Of a DNA stretch of 23,934 nucleotides, positions 7,289-23,934 are shown piece by piece. The first letter of the stretch is position 1. Every line of letters begins with the position of its first letter. Below the pieces are notes generated by a model. That model saw nothing but the letters and a program-made list of their open reading frames with translations. It did no database searches and was not told the DNA's origin. Source of the stretch: a virus. The stretch spans positions 1 through 23,934 of the IMG/VR virus record IMGVR_UViG_3300023174_000628. One strand, given 5' to 3'. The translations under genes and the position numbers were made by a program.

Positions 7289-8392
7289 ATGGCATTCGAC
7301 GAAACCCGTATGTTATTTCCAAATCCCAAAGGATTTGATAACCCAGCATTACTTGATTCTGTCATGGGATACCATCTCATGAAAGATATCGTATGGCCAA
7401 AAAATACATACTTCTATTTGCACAATCAATGGGGTACACACGATAAGAAAACTGTATTGCCTAAAAACCATGACTTATATGTGATCAGTTGGCATATGGA
7501 ACAGATTGATTTTGATTGGCTCGCACTTCAAAACTTGACACAGCCCGTGATAGTGCTATCTGATCAAAAAACCTATGATCCTGAAGTGTGGCCTATCAAT
7601 GTGATTCCTTTGCGTTGGTTTACTTGGCACTTGGCTTTGAAAAAAATGATTGATATGTATGGTATGTCGTTTCACAAAGATATACATTATAAGTTCAGTG
7701 CCTTTTGCAATCGCATCAGTCAAAACAAACTGATAGTGGCCACAACATTGTTGGAAAAAGTCCTACCACAACATCGTTTGGTCAAAGTCGGTACATTTTT
7801 TGAAGAAAAAAATGTGCATCATTGGTCACTCACAGGCAATGCTATGATTGATAACATAGTAGAAACATTTCGACAAAAATATTTTGGACGAGAACTATCC
7901 ATTGATGATTTTGGTACAGATCTGCATCATCATGTCACTGCTAACCCTAACGGCATTGCCTACGAACAAGCTGCCATTAACTTTACCAATGAAAGTTACC
8001 ACTATAGTTTGAAACAGATAGATAATCAACAACTGAGATTGCCAGGGCCCATGACTTCTGAAAAAACTTGGAAGTGTTTGTTAGCCCAAACTGCTTTTGT
8101 GGCAGTAGGACAATATGATACTCACAAGGATCTATGTTCTTTGGGATACAAATTTGATTATGGATTTGATATGAGCTTCGACCAGATTCCTGGAGACATT
8201 GATCGTCTGTGTGCTATCGTTGAACTCATTGACTATCTAGATCAGTATTCAGCGCAGGACTTGTATGAAATGACCAAGGTCAGTACCGAACACAACTATC
8301 ACCATGCAGTTTCTGGTGACTTCTATCAGATCTGTGAAAGTTTCAATCACAGCACACTTGAAAACTTAAACAAGGTATTAAACAATGTTTGA
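7289..8392 (+). CDS. Glycosyltransferase-like protein
   Basis: A 367-aa protein. The N-terminal half resembles a Rossmann-like fold (PVIVLSD near residues 85-91; KLIVATTLLEKVLP near 147-160). The C-terminal part has SEKTWKCLLAQTAFVAVG (from about 258) followed by LGYKFDYGFDMSFDQI and an Arg-containing helix. This S/T-EKT-plus-GY layout is one I associate with uncharacterised glycosyltransferase-like proteins of marine phages and of bacteria. The exact fold, donor and acceptor are unknown. There is no signal peptide. No Shine-Dalgarno precedes the ATG, and the candidate RNA lies just upstream. It overlaps the DegT-like gene by eight bases, suggesting both act on one sugar. Codon use looks more AT-rich than the replication genes, consistent with an acquired cassette. 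Confidence 0.5.
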   Translation: MAFDETRMLFPNPKGFDNPALLDSVMGYHLMKDIVWPKNTYFYLHNQWGTHDKKTVLPKNHDLYVISWHMEQIDFDWLALQNLTQPVIVLSDQKTYDPEVWPINVIPLRWFTWHLALKKMIDMYGMSFHKDIHYKFSAFCNRISQNKLIVATTLLEKVLPQHRLVKVGTFFEEKNVHHWSLTGNAMIDNIVETFRQKYFGRELSIDDFGTDLHHHVTANPNGIAYEQAAINFTNESYHYSLKQIDNQQLRLPGPMTSEKTWKCLLAQTAFVAVGQYDTHKDLCSLGYKFDYGFDMSFDQIPGDIDRLCAIVELIDYLDQYSAQDLYEMTKVSTEHNYHHAVSGDFYQICESFNHSTLENLNKVLNNV

Positions 8393-8999
8393 AACTGTGA
8401 GAGAGTTTGAAATACAAGTAGCGAAGTTCTATGGTGCGCCTTGTGCCGTGGCCACTGACTGTGCTACTCATGCGTTGGAACTGTGTCTCAGAGCCACTGA
8501 CTTTGATAACATCACAGTACCAGTGCGAACCTATGTCAGTGTACCAATGACATTGATCAAGTTGAACAAACATTGGTCTTGGCGAGATCAACCTTGGCAA
8601 GATTTTTACTATTTGGGCAACACCAATATCATTGATGCCGCGGTGTATTGGCAAAAGAATGGATACATCGCAGGCACTATGATGGCGCTGAGTTTTCAGT
8701 TTAAAAAACACCTCAGCACGACCAAAGGTGGAATGATACTGCTGGATGATCCAAAACTAGCACAGCTCTTGCGGCGTATGTCCTATGATGGTAGAGATTT
8801 GTCCAAACCTTGGGCAGAACAACTGATAGACACCGTGGGCTACCATTATTACATGACACCAGAAACTGCACAGCTAGGATTAGCAAGGCTGGCCCAAGCT
8901 AAACTGGAACCTGCCAGGCGATGGGATTATACTGACTACCCGTATTTGCCTGACTTTCCGGTATTTGGTGAAACGCCCATTGACATTGGCACACAATAG
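8385..8999 (+). CDS. Half-size DegT/DnrJ/EryC1/StrS aminotransferase-like protein (copy A)
   Basis: A 204-aa relative of the DegT family of PLP-dependent sugar aminotransferases, whose normal members are near 370-400 aa. Family landmarks appear in order: a GAPCAVATDCATHALELCLR start of the fold (17-36), IIDAA (82-86) with the Asp that contacts the pyridine nitrogen, SFQFKK (103-108) with the PLP lysine, then GG and DD (115-122). SYDGRD (133-138) and GYHYYMTPETAQLGLARL (152-169) follow. The segment between the first and second landmarks is shortened and the C-terminal small domain is missing. Activity as an aminotransferase is therefore uncertain; it may be a dehydratase-like or PLP-binding derivative. 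A paralogue lies near the right end of the window. The -35 box of the next gene is inside its last codons. Confidence 0.75.
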   Translation: MFETVREFEIQVAKFYGAPCAVATDCATHALELCLRATDFDNITVPVRTYVSVPMTLIKLNKHWSWRDQPWQDFYYLGNTNIIDAAVYWQKNGYIAGTMMALSFQFKKHLSTTKGGMILLDDPKLAQLLRRMSYDGRDLSKPWAEQLIDTVGYHYYMTPETAQLGLARLAQAKLEPARRWDYTDYPYLPDFPVFGETPIDIGTQ

Positions 9000-12025: not shown

Positions 12026-12966
12026 AGCTCAGCAGACTTATCACATACAAACACATGGTTGACGGATTGACAGTCAACCACGTCAACGATGAAATCGAAC
12101 GGTTGTTACAGCATGTAGAAACCGACCTGGCCATACAACAGATTGATTTTGAAAACATCAAACAACGTGTGAGCATGAATAAAAAGTTGGTACTAAACAC
12201 ACTCACAGCTATCAATACTGATTTACAAACTTTCAAGAAAGAGTTGACTAAGTTCGTTGATGACATCGAACAACCGTACTATGCCAAGAGTGTGACTATG
12301 TATCAAGAAGGGTTGCACGATACAGCTGACTATATTTTAGATCGTCACAGCTTTAAAAAACTGTTGTACGAGCCAGAGACCTTTGATTTCTTCTGTAACA
12401 GAGTGAGAGGTCATGCCAGTTGGCAATGGCCTGCCATGGAGATTAGACCAGCTCATTGCGAAGTCACTGAATCGTTGACTGCCTGTGATCCATTGTATCT
12501 AGTGGACCTCGATACAGATCTTTTTAAGATAGCAAAGACCAAATGGACCCCCGAGTATCAACGTAGATTGAGATATTATACCGTTAACGAACAGGATAAA
12601 AAAATATTCCATCAACTGCCGCAGGCACAGTTTGGATTGATTGTGTCTGTGGACTTTTTCAACTTCAGACCGTTGGACCTTATCGAACGCTATCTCAAAG
12701 AAATATTTGGCTTGTTGCGACCAGGTGGCATGGCTATTTTTACCTATAACAACTGCGACTATCCAATAGGGGTTGACAATTTTGAGAATTCGTATTATTG
12801 TTATACACCCGGCAGGCAAGTCAAAGAAATCAGTACGCAGATAGGATTTAAAATAGCATCAAGTTTTGATTTAGAAAACAACGTGAGTTGGTTAGAACTC
12901 AGGAGACCAGGCACAAGATCCACCTTGCGAGGCGGACAAACATTGGGCAGAGTAGAAAGTATTTAA
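12022..12966 (+). CDS. SAM-dependent methyltransferase-like protein with helical N-terminus
   Basis: A 314-aa protein. Residues 20-90 are helical and probably coiled coil. The C-terminal part looks like a class I Rossmann methyltransferase. AMEIRPAHCEVTESL (138-152) sits where motif I should be, LYLVDLD (158-164) provides the acidic residue after strand 2, and FGLIVSVDFFNF (204-215) matches motif IV. LLRPGGMAIFTYNN (231-244) matches the usual post-IV loop and strand. Motif I has lost its typical Gly-x-Gly, so SAM binding may be changed or absent. The substrate is unknown; DNA, RNA or a small molecule are all possible. It lies between gp43 and gp45, where T4 keeps clamp-loader genes. A 7-bp hairpin sits at 12057-12079, near the start of the frame. 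Confidence 0.6.
   Translation: MKLSRLITYKHMVDGLTVNHVNDEIERLLQHVETDLAIQQIDFENIKQRVSMNKKLVLNTLTAINTDLQTFKKELTKFVDDIEQPYYAKSVTMYQEGLHDTADYILDRHSFKKLLYEPETFDFFCNRVRGHASWQWPAMEIRPAHCEVTESLTACDPLYLVDLDTDLFKIAKTKWTPEYQRRLRYYTVNEQDKKIFHQLPQAQFGLIVSVDFFNFRPLDLIERYLKEIFGLLRPGGMAIFTYNNCDYPIGVDNFENSYYCYTPGRQVKEISTQIGFKIASSFDLENNVSWLELRRPGTRSTLRGGQTLGRVESI
12773..12801 (+). promoter_or_regulatory. Possible internal promoter ahead of the clamp gene
   Basis: TTGACA (12773-12778) matches the -35 consensus exactly and is followed after 17 bases by TATTGT (12796-12801), which matches four of six -10 positions. It lies in the methyltransferase-like gene about 170 bases before the clamp start. The weak -10 makes this uncertain. 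Confidence 0.3.
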
Positions 12967-12977
12967 ATGGAGAAAAT

Positions 12978-13709
12978 ATGAGAGATCACTTATTAGATTT
13001 AGTAGAACACAGTTATGACCTTGGATGTATTGAACTAGTCAAGATCACAGGCACAGACAAAGAAACACAGATGGATGCCATCGCAGTAGACAAAAGCGTG
13101 GTAATACAGGCCAAGTTCCATGCGCCAGTGGCCGATTTCATTGGCACGTTTGGCATGCCAAACCTCAGCAAACTTAAAATCTTACTGAACCTACAAGAAT
13201 ACAAAGAAGATGCAAAAATCACAGTCACACGCCAGAACCGCAACGGCGTGGATTCACCGGTAGGCTTGCACTTTGAAAACAAAGTTGGCGATTTTAAAAA
13301 TGACTATCGCTTCATGGTAGCCGAAGTAGTTGCAGAACAACTCAAACAGTTCAAGATGAAACCAGTGCCTTGGTCTGTAGAGTTCGAGCCCACTGTGGCA
13401 TCAATCCAGCGTCTCAAGATGCAGGCGCAGGCCAATGCAGAAACACCCAACTTCATGGCCAAGACAGAAAATGGTGATCTAAAGTTTTTCTTTGGTGACC
13501 ATTCAACACACGCCGGAGACTTTGTGTTCCATCCTGGTGTGAGTGGTAAACTTACCCGTCCATGGCTATGGCCAGTGTCGCAGTTTATTGCTATCATGAA
13601 TCTCACCGGTGATAAGACCGTGCGTATCAGCGATGACGGCGCTACCAAGATTACTGTGGATTCTGGCATCGCTGTTTACGATTACATCCTTCCAGCACTC
13701 AGCAAGTGA
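12978..13709 (+). CDS. 45: Sliding clamp, gp45-like DNA polymerase processivity factor
   Basis: A 243-aa protein (T4 gp45 is 228 aa) with the alternating strands and short helices of a sliding clamp. The N-terminal helix LLDLVEHSYD is followed by a strand-rich domain with FIGTFGMPNLSKLKILL at about residues 54-70. A second domain ends in SQFIAIMNLTGDKTVRI and YDYILPAL. A trimeric ring around DNA that tethers gp43 is the expected role. Sequence similarity to T4 itself is weak; the assignment rests on layout, length and the position close to gene 43, whose C-terminal peptide suits clamp binding. I chose the ATG at 12978 because GGAG lies about six bases upstream. An upstream in-frame TTG would overlap the previous gene heavily. 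The stop overlaps the next GTG by four bases. Confidence 0.7.
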   Translation: MRDHLLDLVEHSYDLGCIELVKITGTDKETQMDAIAVDKSVVIQAKFHAPVADFIGTFGMPNLSKLKILLNLQEYKEDAKITVTRQNRNGVDSPVGLHFENKVGDFKNDYRFMVAEVVAEQLKQFKMKPVPWSVEFEPTVASIQRLKMQAQANAETPNFMAKTENGDLKFFFGDHSTHAGDFVFHPGVSGKLTRPWLWPVSQFIAIMNLTGDKTVRISDDGATKITVDSGIAVYDYILPALSK

Positions 13710-14356
13710 TCAGAGACGTAGTCCGATACCAACCTCCCCAACACTGGGGAGTGTTGTTCATTGACTGCTGGCATGCGGGCGGCCAAAACGATGCATTTTA
13801 TCATCAGGTCGTAGATCGATTAAAACAGTTTTCGGTGTCAGCGACGGTGTGTTGTACGGTTGATTTAAAGATTGACTATCAAGACGTTTCTGTGTATAAT
13901 ACATTGAGTCGGTATCTTTGGAATCCCAGTGGCATAAGCGAGCACACCAATCAAAACGTGTTGCTGGATCTAATCAAAGCCGCCGGGAAACAAGAAACGA
14001 GTCGTGTATTGAGGAATAATATTTTCAACAATGACACAGTTTGTCTATATAGAAGAGAAACCTTCAATCATCATGCTCAATATCATGCAGAGGGTATCAA
14101 AGATTGGATAGTAGTTGGAAGTGCATGGAAAATGTGTATACATCATGGCCCCTTGGGCATAGATCGTCTGGTAGATGTAGGAGATCACAAGTTCCACATA
14201 TTTCCTGAGTGGAGTATACAAACAGAAAAACAAGAACCACCGAGCCTACAGGACATACACGATGATTTTTATGTATGGGCACCCATAGCAGATGGTGGAT
14301 TTAGATTGATAACAAGAGCACAAAATCACAAATGGTTCGAGAACAAGACGACTTAA
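13706..14356 (+). CDS. Hypothetical protein, GTG start
   Basis: A 216-aa soluble protein that I cannot place. It begins with a basic turn, then a hydrophobic strand, GVLFIDCWHAGGQND (about residues 15-29), that looks like the first strand and loop of a Rossmann-like domain. A similar strand-Asp layout is seen in cysteine hydrolases, but no complete active site is recognisable. The middle has a WNPSG segment (about 72-76), and the C-terminal half is rich in Trp and His. The GTG overlaps the clamp stop by four bases, the only start option that fits the local coupling. A strong promoter-like sequence lies inside the gene, and its end overlaps the next gene by 25 bases. Confidence 0.6.
   Translation: MIRDVVRYQPPQHWGVLFIDCWHAGGQNDAFYHQVVDRLKQFSVSATVCCTVDLKIDYQDVSVYNTLSRYLWNPSGISEHTNQNVLLDLIKAAGKQETSRVLRNNIFNNDTVCLYRRETFNHHAQYHAEGIKDWIVVGSAWKMCIHHGPLGIDRLVDVGDHKFHIFPEWSIQTEKQEPPSLQDIHDDFYVWAPIADGGFRLITRAQNHKWFENKTT
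13872..13900 (+). promoter_or_regulatory. Near-consensus sigma70-type promoter upstream of the TGT/DpdA-like gene
   Basis: TTGACT (13872-13877), a 17-base spacer and TATAAT (13895-13900) differ from consensus at one base. The site lies inside the upstream coding frame. The predicted transcript would start near 13907 and run about 425 bases before the transglycosylase ATG, long enough to hold a regulatory leader or to be a promoter for a group of downstream genes. Confidence 0.6.
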
Positions 14357-15855
14357 CTGCTAAACAGAGCGACTATGCTGTGTTCCTTCCGGCTATCTCT
14401 AGCTTCTATGCTGGATACATTGGTCGCGAGCGTCACGGAGTGGGATTAGATCCTGGCCGCCTGCCCAAGGGTATTGGTGACATGGAAGCCATGAACTGGC
14501 TGAATCCGCAAAAGGCCTTGTTCCCTTATCGTTGGAGCCTGTATTCAGCAGGCCATGCCAACTTAGACTTGGCCAAGTTTGATGCCAAAGAAGATATGAT
14601 CCGCAACAGAGATCCCAACACCATCATGTTGGCTGACTCAGGCGGATTCCAGATCGCCAAAGGTGTGTGGCCCGGACGCTGGGCCGACCCCACAGATAAA
14701 AAATCTGAGCAACAGAGAGAAAAAGTTCTCAAATGGCAGATGGGCATATCCACTTATGGCATGACCATGGATATTCCTACCTGGACATTCCGCGATCCTG
14801 TGGCTGCCAAAGCATCAGGTATTCACAGCTATGAAGATGCTGTCACAGCCACACAATACAACAACGAGTTTTGGATTGCCAATCGCTTTGGCGACACCAA
14901 AATCTTGAACGTATTGCAAGGTGGTAATCATGCTGAAGCTGATCATTGGTATGATCTTATGAAACACTATTCAGATCCCAACAAGTACCCAAACAAGCAT
15001 TTCAATGGTTGGGGCATGGGTGGACAGAACATGTGCGATGTACACTTGGTTCTCAAACGTCTTGTACATTTGATCCACGACGGATTATTGGAACGAGGCA
15101 TACACGATTGGATGCACTTCTTGGGCACATCAAAACTGGAATGGGCTGTGCTACTCACAGATATCCAACGTGCTGTTCGGAAATATCATAACTCTAACTT
15201 CACTATTTCTTTTGATTGCGCATCGCCGTTCTTGGCCACAGCCAATGGACAAATCTATACACAGTTAAGAACTGCCAATCGCGGCAAGTGGTCATACATG
15301 ATGAGTCCCACAGCCGATAACAAAAAGTATGCCACAGATTCACGATCATTCCGAGATGCTGTGCTACAAGATGGCATCCATGATGTGTTTGAAGATTCGC
15401 CGATTTCAGCAAGGATGTCCATTCAAGATGTCTGTATCTACAAGCCAGGTGATCTCAACAAGATCGGAAAAGAAGGTCGCACATCTTGGGACTCGTTCTC
15501 CTATGCGTTGATGATGGGGCACAATGTTTGGCATCATATCCGAGCAGTGCAAGAAGCCAATCGACGCTACGATGCCGGCGAATCTCCGGACATGATGGTA
15601 CACCCAATCAACCCAGATTTTGATGTGCGTCCGCTGATAGATCGAGTATTTGCCGCACAAGATCGCCAAAAGAGCTTGGCCATAATCGATGAGTATGCTA
15701 CAATATGGGAAAGAGTAGTGGGCACACGAGGCTTTACCGGAAAACGTGCTACCAATGCTCATACCATGTTTAACAGTTTGTTTGAAGTCGAAGACGAAGA
15801 ATCACAGACCGAAGAGTTTGATACAACCTTATTAGACCAACTCGAATCTCAATGA
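14332..15855 (+). CDS. tRNA-guanine transglycosylase-family protein, DpdA-like candidate
   Basis: A 507-aa protein with the landmarks of TGT enzymes, which swap guanine for a 7-deazaguanine base. DSGGFQ is at 102-107, with the conserved substrate-side Asp102. MDIPTW (146-151) offers a second Asp, and VLQGG (194-198) matches the TGT VQGG loop. GWGMGG (226-231) and HFLGTSK (262-268) match the later barrel loops. SFDCASPF (293-300) supplies Asp295 in the place of the nucleophile. Only three cysteines occur, none arranged CxCxxC, so the TGT zinc site is absent. Phage DpdA proteins of this superfamily insert preQ0-type bases into DNA, and the surrounding genes suit DNA modification better than tRNA modification, but this is inference. 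No Shine-Dalgarno is obvious at the ATG. The stop overlaps the next gene by four bases. Confidence 0.75.
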   Translation: MVREQDDLTAKQSDYAVFLPAISSFYAGYIGRERHGVGLDPGRLPKGIGDMEAMNWLNPQKALFPYRWSLYSAGHANLDLAKFDAKEDMIRNRDPNTIMLADSGGFQIAKGVWPGRWADPTDKKSEQQREKVLKWQMGISTYGMTMDIPTWTFRDPVAAKASGIHSYEDAVTATQYNNEFWIANRFGDTKILNVLQGGNHAEADHWYDLMKHYSDPNKYPNKHFNGWGMGGQNMCDVHLVLKRLVHLIHDGLLERGIHDWMHFLGTSKLEWAVLLTDIQRAVRKYHNSNFTISFDCASPFLATANGQIYTQLRTANRGKWSYMMSPTADNKKYATDSRSFRDAVLQDGIHDVFEDSPISARMSIQDVCIYKPGDLNKIGKEGRTSWDSFSYALMMGHNVWHHIRAVQEANRRYDAGESPDMMVHPINPDFDVRPLIDRVFAAQDRQKSLAIIDEYATIWERVVGTRGFTGKRATNAHTMFNSLFEVEDEESQTEEFDTTLLDQLESQ

Positions 15856-16241
15856 AACCAGAACTAGATGCACAGTTGTGCCAAAACTATCCCAAGATAT
15901 TTGCTGATCGAAATCGGCCAATGACTGAAACTGCCATGTGCTGGGGATTTGAACACGGCGATGGGTGGTTTAACATCATCAATCAACTGTGCGGAAACAT
16001 CCAACATCATGTCGATTGGCGAGCCAAACAAGGGCATGCAGTACCTCAGGTGATAGCAGAACAAGTCAAAGAAAAGTTTGGCACACTACGTTTTTACTAT
16101 CGTGGCGGCGACGATGTCATCGATGGCATGGTGCGTATGGCTGAAGCTATGTCGGGTGTGACCTGCGATATCTGCGGTGCGCCCGGCGAAAGAGGTGGGC
16201 AAGGTTGGATCACTACACGTTGCGAAACTCACAGGAAATAA
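15852..16241 (+). CDS. Conserved phage protein with C-terminal zinc-ribbon-like motif
   Basis: A 129-aa protein of a type that I recall from other phages, without known function. The N-terminal half holds AMCWGFEHGDGWFNII (29-44) and a helix with LCGNIQHHVDW (47-57). The middle has a VPQVIAEQVKEKFGTLRFYY segment (64-83). The C-terminus has C105-x2-C108, then C124-x2-H127, a likely zinc knuckle. Its start overlaps the transglycosylase stop by four bases, so the two should be co-translated and could work together. Nucleic-acid or protein contact through the zinc motif is plausible but not shown. Confidence 0.7.
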   Translation: MKPELDAQLCQNYPKIFADRNRPMTETAMCWGFEHGDGWFNIINQLCGNIQHHVDWRAKQGHAVPQVIAEQVKEKFGTLRFYYRGGDDVIDGMVRMAEAMSGVTCDICGAPGERGGQGWITTRCETHRK

Positions 16242-16242
16242 C

Positions 16243-16758
16243 ATGGATAGACCCGGGCACGAAGCTGTGAAATTCTTTATTGGTTCTGAAGTAGAACATA
16301 CTCCAGCGTTTGGACTCAAAACTTTGTTTGTAGTGGGGGTGCAAGATGCCACCACTATAATGCAACAAGCCCAGTTCCATAAATGCCGTCATATTTACTT
16401 TGGGGCCAATCAAAGTTTTCCTAAGTTAGCTACCAATGATGCTGATGCATGGCGTGTGTGGGAACGCATGATACAAGATTGTCTCGAAGCTGGGTACCTT
16501 TGCACATTAGACATTGATGTTTCTTGTGCAGAAGGACTGCTAGAGAGTTATCTAGTAGAGCATACTGATTTCATTCCTATGATTTCTGTCAAGATTCCTT
16601 ACATACGACAGTTTGGATACAATGCCACACTCAAGATCGATGACAAAGACTTCCGAGCAACCAACCCCGGAGTATGGTGCCATAGTTTGCACGATTTACA
16701 AAAAAGATCAGTGTTCACTGACTGGTCTAAATATACCCAAGACAAGGCGTTAGACTAA
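16243..16758 (+). CDS. Conserved T4-like phage hypothetical protein
   Basis: A 171-aa alpha/beta protein. Visible segments are GHEAVKFFIGSEVEHTPAFG near the start, LFVVGVQD (strand and loop), HIYFGANQSFP, and LCTLDIDVS. The second half holds FIPMISVKIPYI and YNATLKIDDKDFRATNPGVW. The regular strand-loop pattern suggests a single enzyme-like domain, perhaps a TIM-barrel fragment or a Rossmann-like fold. I recall similar proteins in T4-like cyanophages but not a function. I chose the ATG at 16243, one base after the upstream stop; an in-frame ATG at 16177 would overlap the upstream gene by 65 bases. Confidence 0.65.
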   Translation: MDRPGHEAVKFFIGSEVEHTPAFGLKTLFVVGVQDATTIMQQAQFHKCRHIYFGANQSFPKLATNDADAWRVWERMIQDCLEAGYLCTLDIDVSCAEGLLESYLVEHTDFIPMISVKIPYIRQFGYNATLKIDDKDFRATNPGVWCHSLHDLQKRSVFTDWSKYTQDKALD

Positions 16759-16759
16759 C

Positions 16760-17275
16760 ATGGCAAAACTATATCGCATCACACCTTTGGAAAAGAAATC
16801 TGTAGAGTATTTTGTTGACGTTTTTGAACGCAAGCCAGATGGAAGTATTCGAGGATTCCAAGTCACAGAAACCTGGCGTTGGGGACAAGCCTTTAGAGAG
16901 CTTGATGATCCTGTGTATGACATGGAAGTAGATAAGGTACATTGCCGTCCAGAGATTGGTTGGGGTTGCGAGCTAGATGACCTGTGTGCTGTGTGGGTCG
17001 AGTTTGATGACGACTTTACCGAAGAAGAGCAAGCTGAGATTAGAGCACTTCTAGAATGGGAGACCGAGGATGAAGATGGTCGTTGTGGTACAGCCTGGCT
17101 CTATGATGGAGATCACAACTGGGAAATCGAAGACGATCATGTGGCCATTTTAGGCCCGGTAAAGATTGACCTTGTTGATGAAGATAGTTATAATGAAGTT
17201 ATAGAAGAAAATGTACAACCCACTAAGTTAGAACCATCAACCAGCTGGCCATTCCAACCCAAGGAAACACAATGA
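16760..17275 (+). CDS. Acidic conserved phage protein
   Basis: A 171-aa, very acidic protein of unknown function. It starts with MAKLYRITPLEKKSVEYF, continues with RGFQVTETWRWGQAFREL (about 31-48) and GWGCELDDLCAVWVEFDDD (about 67-85), then an Asp/Glu-rich stretch with GTAWLYDGDHNWEIEDDH (about 110-127). The acidic surface is like that of DNA mimics, though this is only suggestive. The C-terminus is Pro/Thr-rich and likely flexible. It starts one base after the previous stop, and its stop overlaps the next gene. A strong promoter-like sequence lies in its last 110 bases. Confidence 0.65.
   Translation: MAKLYRITPLEKKSVEYFVDVFERKPDGSIRGFQVTETWRWGQAFRELDDPVYDMEVDKVHCRPEIGWGCELDDLCAVWVEFDDDFTEEEQAEIRALLEWETEDEDGRCGTAWLYDGDHNWEIEDDHVAILGPVKIDLVDEDSYNEVIEENVQPTKLEPSTSWPFQPKETQ
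17166..17194 (+). promoter_or_regulatory. Near-consensus sigma70-type promoter upstream of the QueD-like gene
   Basis: TTGACC (17166-17171), a 17-base spacer and TATAAT (17189-17194) differ from consensus at one base. The site is in the end of the acidic protein gene. Transcription from about 17201 would first read the 75-aa gene and then the QueD-like gene. Confidence 0.6.
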
Positions 17276-17499
17276 ACGACGTTAAAGAACTAGCAGAACA
17301 GGCGATTTATCGTGCTCAACACTTGCAAGAGTTTACAGTCTTGCGTGACGAAAATGACATGATCTTAAGTGGAACCATACGCTATGATATCAGTCATAGA
17401 CCTGGCACACCATATCGTATCACAGTACCAGCCATGAATCAAGACGAAGCTGAGGCTCGTGTTGATGCTTGGATCGAAGAAATGAGGAATGCAGGATGA
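17272..17499 (+). CDS. Small hypothetical protein (75 aa)
   Basis: A 75-aa protein. A first helix (about residues 3-20) is followed by three strands around LRDENDMILSGTIRYDIS and TPYRITVPAMN, and it ends in an acidic helix (QDEAEARVDAWIEEMR). This helix-strands-helix layout is compact and plausible as a real small domain, but no family is recognised. The ATG overlaps the upstream stop by four bases and the TGA overlaps the next ATG by four. It is the first full gene behind the promoter at 17166 and is co-translated with the QueD-like gene. Confidence 0.6.
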   Translation: MNDVKELAEQAIYRAQHLQEFTVLRDENDMILSGTIRYDISHRPGTPYRITVPAMNQDEAEARVDAWIEEMRNAG

Positions 17500-17945
17500 T
17501 TGCCGCTGAAAGAGAAACAGTTGACCGGATCATGCAAAGTGCAGACCGCAAGATTTGGGTCACACTACGTAAAGAAGGTATCCATAAATATCCTGCGGCG
17601 CTGACTGATCCTGCGCTGGCCACAGGAGATGAATATGATGTATCGTTTTTGGGTTATCCTCATCGCCACATCTTTCATTTCAGGGTGTGGATCGATGTGT
17701 TCCATAATGACAGGGACATCGAGTTCATCCAGTTCAAACGATGGATCGAGTCGCTGTATAATGGTCAAGGTTCCATTCTGAGCCTTGACTATAAGTCTTG
17801 CGAGATGATCGCAGACGATCTGTATCTACAAATAGCAGGCCGTTACCCAGGCCGTGCTGTGTGGATTGAAGTGGCCGAAGATGGTGAGAACGGCTGCCTC
17901 ATCAAATATGAAACTCACCGTCCCTATAATTCAATCGTTATTTAA
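17496..17945 (+). CDS. QueD/PTPS-like T-fold protein
   Basis: A 149-aa protein resembling 6-pyruvoyl/6-carboxy-tetrahydropterin synthases (PTPS, QueD), which act on dihydroneopterin triphosphate. His30 (GIHKYP) plus His56 and His58 (PHRHIFHF) match the three zinc ligands, and the 26-residue gap is close to the 25 in mammalian PTPS. The strand FRVWIDVF then IEFIQFKRWIESL (75-87) matches the strand-plus-DF/LK helix of the family. CEMIADDLY (102-110), with Glu103, matches the TSE helix, and IEVAEDGENG (124-133), with Glu128, matches the final VxVxE strand. The catalytic Cys four residues before the HxH pair is Leu52 here, so the chemistry may differ. I chose the ATG overlapping the previous stop. 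The gene fits 7-deazaguanine synthesis with the TGT/DpdA-like gene upstream. Confidence 0.5.
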   Translation: MIAAERETVDRIMQSADRKIWVTLRKEGIHKYPAALTDPALATGDEYDVSFLGYPHRHIFHFRVWIDVFHNDRDIEFIQFKRWIESLYNGQGSILSLDYKSCEMIADDLYLQIAGRYPGRAVWIEVAEDGENGCLIKYETHRPYNSIVI

Positions 17946-17956
17946 AGGAAACTAAC

Positions 17957-18229
17957 ATGGGTCGTACCCTGTTTAAACCTAATCCCCGTAGCCGTCAGGT
18001 CTGGGAAGACCTTGACAAATATCTCAACTTCTGTGTGGACTATGGCTATCGCTATGATCCAGCAGATCTCTACAACAACAGGAGCTATCCTTTCCAGCAG
18101 TTCCGTAAACTGGAAGCAGGTAAAGAGCCCAAGGACATGTGGTCCGAGGATGCTCGTCGTTTCGCAGGATGGCGACCTGATTTCAAACGTGAGGATCGTA
18201 GGCCTTATCGAGGTCCTCGACCAGAGTAA
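17957..18229 (+). CDS. Small basic hypothetical protein (90 aa)
   Basis: A 90-aa basic protein rich in Arg, Tyr, Asp and Trp. A helix around RSRQVWEDLDKYLNFCVDYG (12-31) is followed by RYDPADLYNN and a disordered Pro/Arg-rich tail (REDRRPYRGPRPE). AAAGGAA lies upstream of the ATG and is a good Shine-Dalgarno. The basic tail may contact nucleic acid or a protein partner. No family is recognised. It is separated from its neighbours by 11 and three bases. Confidence 0.65.
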   Translation: MGRTLFKPNPRSRQVWEDLDKYLNFCVDYGYRYDPADLYNNRSYPFQQFRKLEAGKEPKDMWSEDARRFAGWRPDFKREDRRPYRGPRPE

Positions 18230-18232
18230 GAC

Positions 18233-18901
18233 ATGAAAGACCAGCCTGCAGAAATCAAAGTCTCTGAAAACTTGACCTGGGAATCAGCACGGGTAGACAG
18301 TTTTTTACAAGACCTTGACTGCGGGCCACCACAACCCGTAAAAAACTTTATACCGCAATGGTATCGAGATTTACGAGGTGACTTGAGAACCTATCGCGAT
18401 GATGATTGGAGATACAACCATACAGCAAGGTACTGTAAAGGTCTGCAAGGACTTCGTAACATAGGTTGGACCATACCACTGCCAGTTGACATTACAAGTG
18501 AACAGAATGTTATAAGTCGCAAAATAGCAGTTCCCGAAATGTTGTATGGCACTATGTGGAACGAAAAACACAGCAACGGAGATCCTATCTGGGATTTAAC
18601 TGTTGTGTTTTGGCCTTGGAGAGCAAGATTGACCAAGGGATGGCAGATGATGACTTCTGCATATCATTTAGATTGGTCGCCCGATTGGTTTAGTTTCGCT
18701 GGCATGCCTCTGGCCAACTACAGCGTCAACCCAGATAAGAACGGCATAGGTAACATGTATCAGTGGGAGCAACCACTAGACACAGAACACTATGACTATT
18801 ATAATATAGAAACTGTGCATGCCTTTCGATGCGGCACTTTTATACCAAAAGATACTGTGACTTTTAGTTTAGTAATAATACCACCAGAAGGAAATCAATG
18901 A
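18233..18901 (+). CDS. Conserved phage-type hypothetical protein, Trp-rich
   Basis: A 222-aa protein without signal or membrane segment. Characteristic stretches are VKNFIPQWYRDLRGD (about 36-50), RYCKGLQGLRNIGWTIPLP (about 66-84), DLTVVFWPWRARLTKGWQMM (about 121-140) and a C-terminal PKDTVTFSLVIIPP strand pair. The order KxxIPxWYR, then C..L, then IPLP is one I have seen in phage proteins of unknown function (a DUF6065-like layout, not certain). The many exposed Trp and Tyr residues are typical of sugar or polypeptide binding. Its stop overlaps the glycosyltransferase gene by four bases, linking it to carbohydrate functions. Confidence 0.6.
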   Translation: MKDQPAEIKVSENLTWESARVDSFLQDLDCGPPQPVKNFIPQWYRDLRGDLRTYRDDDWRYNHTARYCKGLQGLRNIGWTIPLPVDITSEQNVISRKIAVPEMLYGTMWNEKHSNGDPIWDLTVVFWPWRARLTKGWQMMTSAYHLDWSPDWFSFAGMPLANYSVNPDKNGIGNMYQWEQPLDTEHYDYYNIETVHAFRCGTFIPKDTVTFSLVIIPPEGNQ

Positions 18902-20103
18902 GAAAACTATTTTACATGGGGCTTGAGTCGTATGAGGCCCGCTATACATTACAACTCACAGAGTGGAATCGGCGTGTGTTTGAACGTCGTGGGCTCGACG
19001 TAGTTTATGTGCCCGGATCTACTATTGACAACACACAGGCTATATCGGTCGGCCAAGTGCTAGACGCACATGGACGTAGTTATTTTTCGATGAGCCAGAT
19101 GATGAATCTGGTACAGATAATGCGTAATGGAGAGGTCACCAATGAAGATGTCATTTATTTCGAAGATATGTTCCAGCCCGGCATCGAGAGTCTACCTTAC
19201 ATTATGGACCAGATCCCTGCAAATGCTCGTCCTCGTGTTTATGTTCGCTGTCTTGCTCAATCCATTGATCCTGATGATTTCGTACATGTATGGGGTATGG
19301 CGAAATGGATGGGACTCTACGAACAAATGGTTAATGAGTTTGTTACAGGAGTTCTCGCCACGAACGAAGAGATGGTTGCTCATATGCGGATTGCTGGATG
19401 GGGTGCTCCTATATACAATATTAGTGGCCTAGCATTTGGCAAAGCAGAAGTTCTTGAACGCATCGGTGGCGCACAGAACATCAAGCCATTTGATCAACGC
19501 AAAATGCGTGTGTGTTTTGCCGCTCGCTTCGATCAAGAGAAACAACCTGGCTTCTTCATGGACTTGGTCGAAATGTATCATGCACAAGGACGTCATAAGA
19601 ACGTTGAGTTTGCTGTGTTCCAAGGCGGCCCGTTGCGTTCCAACAATCCGGAATATATACAACGTGCTCGGTCAATGGAGGCGTCAGGCCAGCTCAAAGT
19701 TTATGAAAACTTAAAGAAAAATGATTATTATAATCTGGTCAACGATAGCCGTGTGCTTTTTAACTGTGCTTTACAGGATTGGGTATCTAACACAGTATCT
19801 GAAGCCGATACTCTTGGTTGTAACGTGCTATATCCTGCTTATCGCAGTTTTCCTGAAACCTTTGCAGACGATCCGAACAGGCTCTATGTACCCTGGTCAA
19901 TCGATGATGCATTTACCAAGCTAGAGCTCCTGCTGTATGAGCCTCATCACAACATGGGCCTGATCTCCGACTGGAACAACGGCACGATAGATCGTGTCGT
20001 GGATATCCTAGAAGGCAAAGGCGAGAGTTGGAATCGTGCAGGCAATCGTTACAGAGATTATGTGAGCCAAGCTAAGTATCATGTGAGAAAAATTGAGGGG
20101 TAA
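18898..20103 (+). CDS. Glycosyltransferase, GT-B/GT4-like
   Basis: A 401-aa glycosyltransferase of the two-domain GT-B type. The N-terminal domain holds acceptor-side strands (FYMGLE at the start, LDVVYVPG near 34-41, DVIYFEDMFQPG near 84-95). The second domain begins with MRVCFAARFDQEKQPGFFM (about 203-221), the usual AR-(x)-KG/QPG helix of GT4-like enzymes, and continues with FAVFQGG and LKVYENLKKNDYYNLVN. The donor-site loop WVSNTVSEADTLGCNVLYPA (about 297-316) corresponds to the ExxxxG region. There is no membrane segment, so it acts in the cytoplasm. It is followed one base later by galE, which points to a galactose- or glucose-type donor. The acceptor may be DNA, a virion protein or a host surface glycan. 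Confidence 0.8.
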   Translation: MRKLFYMGLESYEARYTLQLTEWNRRVFERRGLDVVYVPGSTIDNTQAISVGQVLDAHGRSYFSMSQMMNLVQIMRNGEVTNEDVIYFEDMFQPGIESLPYIMDQIPANARPRVYVRCLAQSIDPDDFVHVWGMAKWMGLYEQMVNEFVTGVLATNEEMVAHMRIAGWGAPIYNISGLAFGKAEVLERIGGAQNIKPFDQRKMRVCFAARFDQEKQPGFFMDLVEMYHAQGRHKNVEFAVFQGGPLRSNNPEYIQRARSMEASGQLKVYENLKKNDYYNLVNDSRVLFNCALQDWVSNTVSEADTLGCNVLYPAYRSFPETFADDPNRLYVPWSIDDAFTKLELLLYEPHHNMGLISDWNNGTIDRVVDILEGKGESWNRAGNRYRDYVSQAKYHVRKIEG

Positions 20104-20104
20104 T

Positions 20105-21061
20105 ATGAGCACAATAGTTGTTACAGGATCCAGCGGATTCATCGGAGGAGAAACTCTGCTAAAACTGGCCGACAAAGGTCATGAGGTTATTGCCATTGAT
20201 CTTGACACACCTTGGATGGAAGTGTTGAATAATTCTACATATTTCCATCAAGATGATTTTGCCAGCCAAGACAGTTTAGATCTAATCAAGAGCTACAAAC
20301 CGACTGCCATCATTCATTGTGCTGGCACAAGTTTGGTTGGTCCCAGCATGACCAAGCCAAGAAACTACTACGACAATAACTTTGTAAAAACCAAGAAGCT
20401 GTTGGACTTCATGATCGACAACGGTATGACCAATACACGTTTGATCTTTAGTTCCAGTGCGGCTGTATACGGAGATCCGGTAATGACTCCTTGCTCCGAA
20501 GCAGATCCGCCGTTGCCTATCAGTCCTTACGGCGAAAGTAAATGGATGATCGAGAGCATGTTAAAAAGTTATCATGCGGCCTATGGCATTGACTATGTGG
20601 CATTCAGGTACTTCAATGCCTGCGGAGCAGACAGCAAAAAACGTCATGGTCAAAACAGTCATGCCACACATATCATTGCCAAAGTCTTGCAAGGTATACG
20701 TCGCAAGAACGATTTTGTATTGAATGGTACTAACTATCCCACTCCTGACGGTACCTGTATCCGAGATTATATCCACGTAGAAGACATTGCCGATGCACAC
20801 ATCATGGCTATGGATCGTGCATTGGTCCCGACAGACATCTACAATCTAGGGTCAGGCACTGGACATAGCAACCGTCAGATCATTGATCTGGCATTGAAAA
20901 TCACTGGTCAACCACTTAATGTTGTCGAAGGATCAACACGACCCGGAGACCCAGCTGTGCTTACAGCCAGTGCAGAAAAGTTTACCCAACAGTCAGGGTG
21001 GGTTCCTAAATATAATCTTGAAGAAATAATCACTCATGCATGGGCCTGGTACAATAAGTAA
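20105..21061 (+). CDS. galE: UDP-glucose 4-epimerase-like SDR enzyme
   Basis: A 318-aa extended short-chain dehydrogenase of the GalE type, which interconverts UDP-glucose and UDP-galactose or related nucleotide sugars. The NAD-binding GSSGFIG motif is at 8-14. FSSSAAVYG (115-123) supplies the catalytic Ser/Thr, and the YGESK motif (Tyr142, Lys146) supplies the active-site pair. The RDYIHVEDIADAH segment (about 221-233) is typical of GalE. Length is normal. I chose the ATG at 20105 because GAGGGG lies just upstream; the in-frame TTG at 20093 is less likely. It lies between the glycosyltransferase and radical SAM genes, and would supply or convert the sugar donor for the former. NDP-sugar substrate is not certain. 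Confidence 0.9.
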   Translation: MSTIVVTGSSGFIGGETLLKLADKGHEVIAIDLDTPWMEVLNNSTYFHQDDFASQDSLDLIKSYKPTAIIHCAGTSLVGPSMTKPRNYYDNNFVKTKKLLDFMIDNGMTNTRLIFSSSAAVYGDPVMTPCSEADPPLPISPYGESKWMIESMLKSYHAAYGIDYVAFRYFNACGADSKKRHGQNSHATHIIAKVLQGIRRKNDFVLNGTNYPTPDGTCIRDYIHVEDIADAHIMAMDRALVPTDIYNLGSGTGHSNRQIIDLALKITGQPLNVVEGSTRPGDPAVLTASAEKFTQQSGWVPKYNLEEIITHAWAWYNK

Positions 21062-21064
21062 TCG

Positions 21065-22093
21065 ATGTATCACTCAGCAGAACTCGTACATTGGATGCGC
21101 AATCGAGATACCAAGGCCATACTTCCGGCGCAGGTAGACATTGATTTAACCAACATTTGCAATCAAGACTGCTATTACTGTAACAGTGCCGACCATAGAG
21201 CCACAGCACCAGTACAGAAAAAATACATAGAATACATCGAACTCCTAGACAAAGTGTCTACCTGGAGATCACACAGCCCCAACAGTTATGGTACTACACA
21301 TACCATAACCTATGCCGGCGGCGGAGAGCCCACGGTACTAAGTGGATATGAACATGTAATAGAGCATACCATTGACCTGGGATTCCTTGCTTCCATCACT
21401 ACCAATGGATCCAAACTAGATCGGTTATTAGACAGCGTGCCTGTAAGCAAACTGCAAAAGCTGGCTTGGATAGGTGTTGACATCGATGCCGGCACCGAAG
21501 ACCTGTATGAAAAGATACGCAGGAGTTTGACATCTAAAAGTCTGTTTAACAGAGTAAAAGAAAATGCTCGAGAACTTATCTCCGCTGGTGTGAATGTAGA
21601 TTTCAAATGTTTGATCAATCCCTACAATGACAATCAACAAGCCATTGACGATTTGTTTGATTATGTCAAACAAGTACAAGGTCGTATGTTGTACTTCCGA
21701 CCAGTGATCTACAATAACCAAGCACACCCTATCACTGACCTACTGAAATCTTGGATCTCTCAGGCCAGCCAACGCACCGGTATTCCTTATTGGATCAACG
21801 AAAACAAAACACAGCCTCGGCAATACAAGCGTTGTCATCAGATGTATCACTTTCCTGTGTTCTGTGCCGAAGGTTATATCTATGTGTGTTGCGACAACAA
21901 AGGCAATCCTGCATTCAGTATCGGTCGCTGGGATCAAGGTGACTTTAGAGACCTATGGTTGAGCTCAAGACATCATGACATCTATGAAAAAACCAATGTG
22001 TCGCTGTGCAAACCTTGCAGGCCCAACCCAACTAACAACGACATACAGTCTATAATAGATACACCTAAAACCATCGAGCAACTATATCTATGA
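21065..22093 (+). CDS. Radical SAM enzyme with SPASM-like C-terminus
   Basis: A 342-aa radical SAM protein. C32-x3-C36-x2-C39 binds the [4Fe-4S] cluster that cleaves SAM, and GGGEPT (85-90) is the SAM-binding GGEP motif. ITTNG (111-115) follows on the next strand. The C-terminal part has Cys257, Cys267, Cys275, Cys276, Cys315 and Cys318 in the order typical of SPASM/twitch domains, which hold one or two extra clusters and occur in peptide- and sugar-modifying enzymes. The GYIYVCCDNKGN segment and the DLW motif are characteristic. This is not QueE, which lacks such a C-terminal cluster domain. Substrate unknown; neighbours suggest a nucleotide-sugar or a glycosylated product. It follows galE after three bases and overlaps the next start by four. 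Confidence 0.85.
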   Translation: MYHSAELVHWMRNRDTKAILPAQVDIDLTNICNQDCYYCNSADHRATAPVQKKYIEYIELLDKVSTWRSHSPNSYGTTHTITYAGGGEPTVLSGYEHVIEHTIDLGFLASITTNGSKLDRLLDSVPVSKLQKLAWIGVDIDAGTEDLYEKIRRSLTSKSLFNRVKENARELISAGVNVDFKCLINPYNDNQQAIDDLFDYVKQVQGRMLYFRPVIYNNQAHPITDLLKSWISQASQRTGIPYWINENKTQPRQYKRCHQMYHFPVFCAEGYIYVCCDNKGNPAFSIGRWDQGDFRDLWLSSRHHDIYEKTNVSLCKPCRPNPTNNDIQSIIDTPKTIEQLYL

Positions 22094-22449
22094 CTCCACA
22101 GTTTCCTATTATTGAACTACTAGATCGATTGGCCATAGCCAGAGTCAAGCATCACCGCATTGGGAACAATCAAGTCGAGCTTGATTTTTACTATAACCAG
22201 GCCAAGCATTTGGACCTATCTTTGGTAGCAGGAGAGCTGATCAATCTACAACAGATCCATAATGAAATCTGGGAACTAGAAAAAGAACTCAAAAGCGGTC
22301 GAGAGAACGAACTGCCGCTTGAGGAAATCGGGCGTCGTGCTATCAAAATAAGAGACTGGAACAACAAACGGGTCAGCATCAAAAATGTCATGGCTGAAAA
22401 ACTGTCTTGTCCAGTGAGAGAAATCAAGAAAGATCACTTGTCAGAATGA
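22090..22449 (+). CDS. Small helical protein of unknown function
   Basis: A 119-aa, all-helical, charged protein. It starts IIELLDRLAIARVKHHR (residues 7-23), has a central INLQQIHNEIWELEKELKSG helix (about 51-70) and ends in EEIGRRAIKIRDWNNKR (about 77-93). I recall such proteins next to glycosyltransferase and sugar-modification genes, but not their function. A helper or scaffolding role for a neighbouring enzyme would fit. The ATG overlaps the radical SAM stop by four bases, and the TGA overlaps the 2OG oxygenase start by four. Confidence 0.6.
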   Translation: MTPQFPIIELLDRLAIARVKHHRIGNNQVELDFYYNQAKHLDLSLVAGELINLQQIHNEIWELEKELKSGRENELPLEEIGRRAIKIRDWNNKRVSIKNVMAEKLSCPVREIKKDHLSE

Positions 22450-22943
22450 AATACGAGCTAGGACACATTGATCCATGGTGGGACGAGCACTTTAAAACTT
22501 TTACCTACGAGTATCTCCCGCACAAAGATCAGAACATGGTACGCGAATGGGAATCTCAAGGCTATAGAAACTTGCATCTCAATGGTGCCATACACAATCT
22601 CAACGATTCAGCCTATGCTCAACGTTTCTTCCAGCACTTTCCTTGGACTAATCAAGGAGCCTCTTTATTTCGAATGATCACTGGTGACATCACTCCCAAC
22701 CACAAAGATCATTACATAACATACAAAAGAGTCTTTAACATCGATGATCCAAGCGGTATCTGGAGGGCCATCGTATTCATGGAAGACTGGAAGTCAGGAC
22801 ACTATTTTGAGATAGATGACAAGCCAGTGGTAAACTGGAAACGTGGTGATTATGTTTCGTGGAACTATGATGTCAAACACATGGCATTTAACATGGGGAT
22901 CGAGCCAAGATATACTATGCAAATCACAGGTGTTAAACTATGA
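22446..22943 (+). CDS. 2-oxoglutarate/Fe(II)-dependent oxygenase-like protein
   Basis: A 165-aa double-stranded beta-helix protein with an Fe(II)/2OG oxygenase site. His86 and Asp88 (NHKDHY) and the distal His145 (DVKHMAFN) form the HxD...H iron triad. Arg155 (EPRYTMQITG) is placed to bind 2-oxoglutarate. The strand GHYFEIDDKPVVNWKRGDYVSWN is characteristic of Asp/Asn beta-hydroxylase-like enzymes. Members hydroxylate peptides, nucleic acids, sugars or lipids. The substrate is unknown. I chose the ATG that overlaps the upstream stop by four bases. It is overlapped four bases by the second DegT-like gene, so the two are co-translated. Small oxygenases of this kind are common in marine T4-like phages. 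Confidence 0.8.
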   Translation: MKYELGHIDPWWDEHFKTFTYEYLPHKDQNMVREWESQGYRNLHLNGAIHNLNDSAYAQRFFQHFPWTNQGASLFRMITGDITPNHKDHYITYKRVFNIDDPSGIWRAIVFMEDWKSGHYFEIDDKPVVNWKRGDYVSWNYDVKHMAFNMGIEPRYTMQITGVKL

Positions 22944-23530
22944 ATCTAAGTATCATCAAAGACTTTGAACAGGCGTTGGCCAAGTACACCGGGTCACCTT
23001 ATGCCATAATGACTGATTGCTGTACTCATGCCATAGAACTGTGTCTGCGCTATGAGCGGGTGAAAGAATGTCAGTTTACTCCGTACACATATCTCAGTGT
23101 ACCAATGACCATGTATAAACTAGGTATTGATTTTGAATACCTCAATCACGACAGTCAACAGTGGATTGGTGAATATCAGTTTATCAATACCAGGGTATGG
23201 GACAGTGCCAGGAGGTTAGAACCAAATATGTATAGGCCTGGATCAATGATGTGCCTGAGTTTTGGTTATTCAAAACCTTTGGAAATCGGTCATGGCGGTG
23301 CTATATTGTTAGATGATGCCAAGGCTTATGAGATGTTACTGCGACAAAGATATGATGGACGAGATCTCACGGTCAGTCCTTGGCAAGATCAACAAGAGTT
23401 CGTAGTTGGCTACCACTATAGACCTGCCATCGAAGATGCGGTCAAAGGTCTGGAAATGTTGCCCAATATCAAACCTCAAAACCAACAAGTAACATATCCT
23501 GATTGTCGGAAAATACATATAAAAACTTGA
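22940..23530 (+). CDS. Half-size DegT/DnrJ/EryC1/StrS aminotransferase-like protein (copy B)
   Basis: A 196-aa paralogue of the protein encoded at 8385-8999, sharing TDCxTHAxELCLR, the SVPMT motif, RYDGRDL/SYDGRD and the GYHY block. Landmarks here are TDCCTHAIELCLR (25-37), VWDSARRL (about 86-93) with the pyridine-contact Asp, SFGYSK with the PLP lysine, GHGGAILLDD, and GYHYRPAIEDAVKGLEML. As in the paralogue, the central segment is short and the C-terminal domain is missing. The second residue pair of the DSARR block resembles full-length DegT enzymes more closely. It overlaps the oxygenase gene by four bases; its stop codon is inside the -35 box of the next promoter. PLP binding is likely, amine transfer is uncertain. 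Confidence 0.75.
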   Translation: MNLSIIKDFEQALAKYTGSPYAIMTDCCTHAIELCLRYERVKECQFTPYTYLSVPMTMYKLGIDFEYLNHDSQQWIGEYQFINTRVWDSARRLEPNMYRPGSMMCLSFGYSKPLEIGHGGAILLDDAKAYEMLLRQRYDGRDLTVSPWQDQQEFVVGYHYRPAIEDAVKGLEMLPNIKPQNQQVTYPDCRKIHIKT

Positions 23531-23555
23531 CAATCGTCTAAATAACAGTTACAAT
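23527..23555 (+). promoter_or_regulatory. Near-consensus sigma70-type promoter for the last gene
   Basis: TTGACA (23527-23532), a 17-base spacer and TACAAT (23550-23555) differ from consensus at one base. The upstream stop codon (23528-23530) is inside the -35 box. A TCTAAATA (23537-23544) between the boxes is one or two bases from T4-like late promoter sequences, so late use is a second possibility. The transcript start would be near 23562, about 38 bases before the predicted TTG. Confidence 0.65.
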
Positions 23556-23599
23556 AATAACAAGACTGGTCATCCTCGACCCTAACTCGGAGAAATACT

Positions 23600-23934
23600 T
23601 TGACAACATTTACATCAGAAGATTTACAAAACGCCGTGCCCGGTAAAAGCCAAGACACATTTGACGTACTCAAACAAAGCCGGCTGGTAGCAGAAGCACC
23701 GTATCATCCTGGCTATGAAGATGCTGTGCCGAATGCCTTGGATTCTTTGAGCGACAAGGACTATGAAGTGGGTCGCTATCTTGGTGACAGCATCAGATTC
23801 GCTATGAAACGTGATCGTAAACGTTTCTGGGCTGGCGATAACATCAGCGACTATTTGCACGAAGGTGACAAAGAACGCCTGATTGACGAAGCCACTGAAG
23901 CATTTGAGCTAGTTCTAGATCGGTTGTTGATTGA
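23600..23934 (+). CDS. Start of a gene cut by the window end, GTP cyclohydrolase I-like candidate
   Basis: An open frame of at least 111 codons runs off the right edge. A TTG at 23600 is the only plausible start: no ATG or GTG occurs between the in-frame stop at 23558 and this point, and GGAG (23589-23592) lies seven bases upstream. Residues 1-65 are polar, with a KSQDTFDVLKQ helix. The last part, RFWAGDNISDYLHEGDKERL then a helix ending FELVLDRLLID, matches the beginning of phage and bacterial GTP cyclohydrolase I (FolE) as I know it, where the helix before the DhNT..T..RVAKMY motif ends in LVID. The diagnostic motif, zinc ligands and active site lie past the edge, so the assignment is tentative. 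FolE makes the first intermediate of both folate and 7-deazaguanine pathways. It has its own promoter. Confidence 0.4.
   Translation, partial: MTTFTSEDLQNAVPGKSQDTFDVLKQSRLVAEAPYHPGYEDAVPNALDSLSDKDYEVGRYLGDSIRFAMKRDRKRFWAGDNISDYLHEGDKERLIDEATEAFELVLDRLLI

Follow-up and report, generated by a model that had tools for sequence, protein, structure and literature searches.

The virus record IMGVR_UViG_3300023174_000628, 23,934 bases long and analyzed here as a whole (the window), is a fragment of a T4-like phage. We propose, with a probability of roughly 60%, that the window holds the front part of an operon whose products exchange guanine in the DNA of the phage for a glycosylated, hypermodified 7-deazaguanine that does not derive from preQ0. 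The genes concerned all lie on the plus strand. They encode a DpdA-like DNA guanine transglycosylase of a divergent group (14332-15855; 507 aa), a T-fold enzyme that is a paralogue of QueD (17496-17945; 149 aa), a predicted GT4-like glycosyltransferase (GT; 18898-20103; 401 aa), the UDP-glucose 4-epimerase GalE (20093-21061) and the 5′ part of the GTP cyclohydrolase I gene folE (23600-23934), which is cut by the contig end. A preliminary description of the window had reported a scattered set of 7-deazaguanine genes in the frames at 14332-15855, 17496-17945 and from 23600 on. All three frames are present where it placed them, and "scattered" is too weak a word for genes that make up a conserved block. 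The same description left out the GT, which is as conserved a partner as DpdA.

The transglycosylase and the QueD paralogue

Single-sequence searches of Pfam, PHROG, NCBIfam and PDB with the 507-aa protein gave no match. The tRNA-guanine transglycosylase (TGT) model PF01702 matches none of these phage transglycosylases. It misses even DpdA2 of Vibrio phage nt-1, which was assigned to a subfamily of DNA 7-deazaguanine transglycosylases (Hutinet et al., 2019, PMC6884629), so its negatives say little here. An AlphaFold2 model of the 507-aa protein (predicted local distance difference test, pLDDT, 88; 36 diverse homologues as input) resulted in a clear Foldseek placement (E 8e-8, prob 1.00). The top 50 PDB matches are all TGTs, and the model aligns to 2ash over 301 residues (VIA Z 20.3; root-mean-square deviation, rmsd, 4.3). 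The search puts the protein inside the TGT superfamily, as first suggested from its motifs, and the model has the TGT TIM-barrel fold.

Homologues of the 507-aa protein are carried by jumbo Pseudomonas phages of the PA5oct group (36%), by Vibrio phage 2.275.O and by Sinorhizobium phage Phosso, and viral contigs contribute at least 255 matched stretches. BLAST gave no match to nt-1 DpdA2 and an E-value of 0.006 to ACP17. A profile of the window's group, aligned by hhalign with a DpdA2 profile built from nt-1, ACP17, X1 and BUCT-ZZ01, matched with Prob 94.5 and E 7.4e-8 over the core from DSGG-Q to SxD. The protein belongs to a divergent group of DpdA, the DNA transglycosylases, and this group appears to be related to DpdA2 but separate from it.

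The sequence features reported in the preliminary description are all borne out. DSGGFQ (residues 102-107), VLQGG and Asp295 are present, and the protein has exactly three cysteines (235, 296, and 368). Cys296 and Cys368 are invariant among close homologues and Cys235 is kept in 52/53. The motifs shared across both DpdA groups are D102-S-G-G-x-Q, D147, P149, H262-x-L-G and S293-x-D295, and the invariant positions common to both are D102, S103, G104, G105, Q107, D147, P149, N177, G197, H262, L264, G265, S293, and D295. Asp295 is probably the nucleophile and Asp102 probably the general acid/base. The CxCxxC zinc site of tRNA TGTs occurs in 0/328 homologous frames and in 0/91 DpdA2 frames. The protein was thus rightly described as lacking the zinc site, but the lack is not peculiar to it, because DpdA2 frames share it, and CxCxxC is not a defining feature of phage DpdA. 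Homology to DpdA2 and the operon context point to base exchange in DNA rather than in tRNA.

The 149-aa protein matches phrog_17812 at 1.4e-35. The best solved match to its AlphaFold2 model (pLDDT 92; 55 homologues as input) is E. coli QueD (4ntk), with a Foldseek E-value of 6.2e-5, VIA Z 11.9 and an rmsd of 2.3 over 110 aligned residues. A search of the T-fold profile against PDB sequences gave no clear placement, and the QueD fold was settled by structure only. The structure search agrees with the earlier suggestion of a QueD/PTPS-like protein, and we take the modelled fold to be a T-fold of the QueD/PTPS type. The zinc triad His30, His56, and His58 is conserved together with Glu103 and Glu128; the protein thus retains the HxH pair with its upstream His, the Glu in SCE and the Glu in the ED(G) motif. 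Leu52 stands at the position of the catalytic Cys, and Leu is found there in 357/359 T-fold homologues. When the catalytic Cys was sought four residues before HxH, the pattern C...HxH was found in just 1/427 T-fold frames. The three His ligands, both Glu and the replacement of Cys by Leu had all been read correctly from the window. The family also has a motif of its own, H..R..EF; in 396/427 frames the T-fold protein is conserved together with a family-specific set of motif residues, among them H70, R73, and E76.

The preliminary description gave this protein the second step of the pathway, that of QueD. This did not hold. All 13 long relatives of the window (225-356 kb) encode the T-fold protein and, separately, one PF01242 QueD each, and both proteins are also found in PA5oct, Phosso, ACP17, and phiST. 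The catalytic Cys is intact, as C...HG(H/Y), in 153/153 QueD frames detected by hidden Markov model. Because the relatives encode a separate Cys-bearing QueD, the T-fold protein appears not to be the QueD of the pathway.

Base synthesis and the missing QueC

The folE frame of the window encodes 111 residues, which correspond to the N-terminal portion of proteins 250-296 aa long that relatives encode. The full-length relatives have the GTP cyclohydrolase I domain (PF01227, 5.9e-39) and carry the SELRSMCSHHHQPV and HGCCENRG motifs. The window's copy ends before the active site, and the domain match is that of the full-length relatives only; through them, the FolE-like start noticed earlier proves to be a real FolE. 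In relatives the block continues past FolE on the same strand to QueD and QueE. Five NCBIfam QueE models support their QueE, with E-values from 1e-13 to 5e-7 and scores below the curated cut-offs. QueD and QueE thus probably lie just beyond the end of the window. A radical SAM protein within the window (21065-22093) was considered as QueE and rejected, as it is SPASM/viperin-like and has no QueE model among its best 25 matches. Radical SAM domains are unusually numerous in the window's relatives (9 to 19 matches per genome in G001-G013).

The window itself is a fragment, and the absence of QueC is read from its relatives. QueC (PF06508) was not properly matched in the 13 long relatives, PA5oct, Phosso, ACP17 or phiST. 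Weak PF06508 matches in three of the long relatives (17-20 bits, 50-65 residues) are partial and were not accepted. QueC was found in 0/427 loci with the T-fold gene, within the sequence available for each locus. Among the genomes checked, a proper QueC is present only in nt-1 and Vibrio phage 2.275.O. The preliminary description allowed for QueC and QueE to lie elsewhere, to come from the host or to be absent; in relatives QueE does lie elsewhere, downstream of FolE, and QueC is missing from the family. Its label of a preQ0-type modification is not supported, for lack of QueC in the long relatives and the 427 T-fold loci alike. The conversion of GTP to 7-carboxy-7-deazaguanine (CDG) by FolE, QueD, and QueE is an established pathway (PMC13329287). 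With no QueC anywhere in the family, synthesis should end at CDG, and the T-fold protein would be the sole conserved candidate to act on it. We predict that it processes CDG, most likely as a decarboxylase.

The predicted glycosyltransferase, its partners and its neighbors

The window's GT is 68% identical to UTS52032 of Synechococcus phage BUCT-ZZ01, whose gene adjoins the T-fold gene. It forms one family with the GTs of X1, ACP17, PA5oct, and Phosso, which are located beside the T-fold gene, DpdA or both. Donor-site residues are conserved across the family in R...EK.P and E(D)x7E-type motifs. The family has weak matches to Glycos_transf_1 (ACP17 and PA5oct), to TreT/GlgA (X1) and, by family profile, to the PDB glycosyltransferase 5i45 (E 0.001). 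We predict that the 401-aa protein is a GT4-like glycosyltransferase of the GT-B type and that it glycosylates the inserted base. GalE, whose gene overlaps that of the GT, scores 310 bits with TIGR01179 against a curated cut-off of 262.3, and lies directly behind the GT in 104/214 loci with room for it. GalE may supply the sugar donor, a UDP-hexose. It is conserved only in the window's group and is thus an accessory gene.

The association of the GT with DpdA and the T-fold protein is nearly obligate. A search of 50,697 phage records with the X1 GT resulted in 16 records, all with both T-fold and DpdA. With the PA5oct GT as query, four more phages were matched, jumbo phages of Xanthomonas/Erwinia whose cassette is a different one. 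In Xanthomonas phage PhiXhv-12 (L367, 114176-132961), a GT related to that of PA5oct lies beside glutamine-fructose-6-phosphate aminotransferase-like and GlcNAc-malate deacetylase-like genes; T-fold and DpdA are not annotated in the stretch read, and this is possibly another glycosylation cassette. In whole records, every lineage checked that has both T-fold and DpdA also has the GT, the named phages among them, and so do the window-type contigs checked. The GT is absent from six T-fold phages without detectable DpdA (phiST, RHph_I1_18, Bakedbeans, Ahp1_CNU-2021, D479, and MA9V-3, where an interrupted GT fragment of 13.7 bits was disregarded) and from both QueC-type phages checked (nt-1 and Vibrio 2.275.O). 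Counted by lineage, the association of the GT with T-fold plus DpdA has a Fisher p of 0.007. The six T-fold phages in which these profiles detect no DpdA or GT carry FolE, and several of them QueD/QueE; base entry through an unrecognized DpdA or by incorporation at the nucleotide level is possible there.

The flanked loci give the same picture in both DpdA groups. T-fold and GT are present in 27/27 flanked loci of the window's group. Among 39 flanked DpdA2 loci, the GT is found in 37/37 with T-fold and in 0/2 without it (p 0.0013). The usual order in the latter group is QueE-FolE-DpdA2-T-fold-GT-QueD, and the T-fold and GT genes overlap (median gap −16 bp, by open frame). As a negative control, we compared 38 dereplicated loci of the window's group with 22 of the DpdA2 group. 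Only DpdA, T-fold, GT (37/38 and 22/22), and FolE (34/38 and 22/22) are regularly common to both, and the other genes of the window are essentially not shared with DpdA2 operons. We rejected the notion of the GT as one sugar gene among many on this point, and also because each large GT-bearing genome has exactly one match to the family. The gene order is DpdA-GT-T-fold in ACP17 and PA5oct, GT-DpdA-T-fold in X1, DpdA-T-fold-GT in BUCT-ZZ01 and T-fold-GT in Phosso. The GT stays adjacent to T-fold or DpdA although the order varies between lineages, and for this reason one frozen inherited block does not explain the association.

Two cellular records contain related genes. Magnetospirillum aberrantis SpK (L538, 6823-10905) has overlapping GT, T-fold, and DpdA genes followed by QueD, near an integrase-like gene, and appears to hold a cellular or prophage version of the system. 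In Streptomyces sp. NEAU-Y11 (L546/L547, 7968-11614) the T-fold gene is next to genes for QueD, FolE, a CDA-type deaminase, and a BBE-like oxidase. The locus has no GT or DpdA, and the genome has no QueE by the one model tried (TIGR04322). These genes are likely a metabolite cluster that could reveal the T-fold reaction.

Of the remaining genes in the window, a gp43-like polymerase (9365-12025) and a gp45-like clamp (12888-13709) were recognized from sequence. A 193-aa protein (16177-16758) has no family match and is kept in 34/38 loci of the window's DpdA group and in only 3/22 DpdA2 loci. Two short proteins (8385-8999 and 22940-23530) resemble, by eye, the N-terminal halves of DegT/DnrJ/EryC1-type aminotransferases, and homologues of them occur in 22/38 related loci.

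Proposed pathway, alternatives and known systems

FolE, QueD, and QueE would convert GTP to CDG, which without QueC would not be turned into preQ0. The QueD paralogue would then act on CDG, with loss of the carboxylate as the most likely reaction. An enzyme that keeps the zinc site and the ring anchors but has lost the Cys/His acid-base pair would fit a 7-deazaguanine bound with its carboxylate at the zinc, and decarboxylation would be the simplest outcome. The divergent DpdA would swap guanine in DNA for the modified base through Asp295. The GT would add a sugar to the inserted base, as its standing as a near-obligate partner suggests. In the window's lineage, GalE would perhaps help to provide a UDP-hexose as the source of the sugar, a donor hinted at by the overlap of the GalE gene with that of the GT in this phage group. 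The sugar may be linked as a C-glycoside to C7. Folds, conserved residues, gene content, the lack of QueC and the near-obligate association of GT, DpdA and T-fold are observed; the individual reactions, which of the last two comes first, the DNA base as GT acceptor, the sugar and a role in protection from restriction are inferred. That a divergent branch of the pathway makes a different base had been suggested before. This is plausible in outline, with other parts for the T-fold protein and QueC and with the GT added. We see it as an evenly balanced question whether a wide set of phages, among them isolates such as the PA5oct/Paride group, ACP17, X1, and BUCT-ZZ01, has in its DNA a glycosylated 7-deazaguanine for which CDG is the precursor, QueC is dispensed with, a QueD paralogue has been repurposed and a GT is dedicated to the pathway.

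Several points weigh against a glycosylated base. After decarboxylation, the base would have no obvious oxygen or nitrogen at C7 to which a sugar could be attached; the sugar would then have to sit on C7 itself, or the T-fold protein catalyzes another reaction. A role of the GT in virion or host-surface glycosylation is conceivable, given how many sugar genes the phage group of the window carries. The loci were ranked by similarity to GT-bearing queries, so the sample leans to GT carriers, and near-duplicates remain in the larger locus counts. Two large contigs (G014 and G016) have GT and T-fold and no DpdA detectable by these profiles. Lastly, several phages (phiST, RHph_I1_18, Bakedbeans, Ahp1, and D479) have T-fold and no GT, which shows that the T-fold product has a use even when no sugar is attached.

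These phages fit an unglycosylated 2′-deoxy-7-deazaguanine system, in which the T-fold protein is the CDG decarboxylase DpdL, DpdA inserts plain 7-deazaguanine and the GT serves otherwise. FolE, QueD, and QueE without QueC, plus a QueD paralogue with a zinc site, are the minimum for turning CDG into 7-deazaguanine. We nonetheless consider such a system unlikely, as the GT accompanies T-fold and DpdA in every flanked T-fold locus of two DpdA groups, in tight and often overlapping operons, and its family is hardly seen in other phages. The missing acceptor at C7 could also mean that the GT acts earlier, on the free base or nucleotide, or on the carboxylate of CDG as a glycosyl ester, with the T-fold protein preparing the acceptor rather than decarboxylating. 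The sugar would thereby gain a chemical handle, GT and T-fold are coupled more tightly to each other than either is to DpdA, and the contigs that have GT and T-fold while DpdA goes undetected would be accommodated. Glycosylation before insertion seems improbable, however. The TGT pocket would need to accept a glycosylated base, and preparing an acceptor would be pointless in the several phages that have T-fold without GT. It is far less credible still that the T-fold protein is a second, degenerate QueD in an ordinary preQ0/dG+ phage that relies on host preQ0. The protein is related to QueD in sequence and fold, and host participation in phage DNA modification has been discussed for some phages (PMC6884629). 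Against this stand the separate intact QueD in each of the 13 long relatives, the retention of the T-fold with motifs of its own in nearly all frames, the lack of QueC and the absence of the T-fold protein from the two QueC-bearing phages checked. We thus favor the glycosylated 7-deazaguanine made from CDG.

The closest known systems are the phage DpdA2 systems, such as that of Vibrio phage nt-1 (Hutinet et al., 2019, PMC6884629). Like the window, they have a zinc-less transglycosylase with DSGG-Q, D/P, HxLG, and SxD motifs, and like window-type loci they have FolE, QueD, and QueE in a block. Unlike the window, nt-1 has QueC, no T-fold paralogue and no GT, and the window's DpdA is of another group, linked by profile only. 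Bacterial dpd islands share the DpdA-type insertion of 7-deazaguanines into DNA, but they take the preQ0 route with additional Dpd proteins; in Magnetospirillum, the chromosomal copy consists of GT-T-fold-DpdA-QueD instead. E. coli QueD (4ntk) shares with the T-fold protein the T-fold, the three His zinc ligands, and both Glu anchors. The stretch with the catalytic His of QueD is shortened in the T-fold protein and the His is lost, and the catalytic Cys, which we take to be Cys27 of E. coli QueD, is replaced by Leu. Cui et al. are said to have described, in 2023, 2′-deoxy-7-deazaguanine (dDG) in DNA and a predicted CDG decarboxylase, DpdL. That pathway is likewise QueC-less, with CDG predicted to be processed by an extra enzyme, and differs from the window in that it is not known to include a GT. 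The decarboxylation step of the T-fold protein may be that of the DpdL/dDG pathway, with phrog_17812 as a candidate for DpdL.

Known phage 7-deazaguanines bear small groups at C7 (cyano, amido, amidino, or aminomethyl), and methylated, formylated, and unsubstituted states also occur. We found no report of a GT in 7-deazaguanine DNA modification in the openly accessible literature searched, and the link is new as far as could be checked. If true, it would explain a large unannotated gene family, phrog_17812 with its GT, in many jumbo and T4-like phages. Paride, a relative of PA5oct, grows on the laboratory strain PAO1, which makes the hypothesis readily testable. DNA with a sugar on its 7-deazaguanine would represent a hypermodification of a new class, one that joins the themes of 7-deazaguanine and glucosylated 5-hydroxymethylcytosine. 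The predicted likeness to the T-even DNA glucosyltransferases, which act on 5-hydroxymethylcytosine, is that of a phage GT-B enzyme hypermodifying a base already in DNA. They differ in GT family, the window's GT being GT4-like by weak Pfam/NCBIfam matches, and in their acceptor, a pyrimidine in the T-even phages and a purine analogue here.

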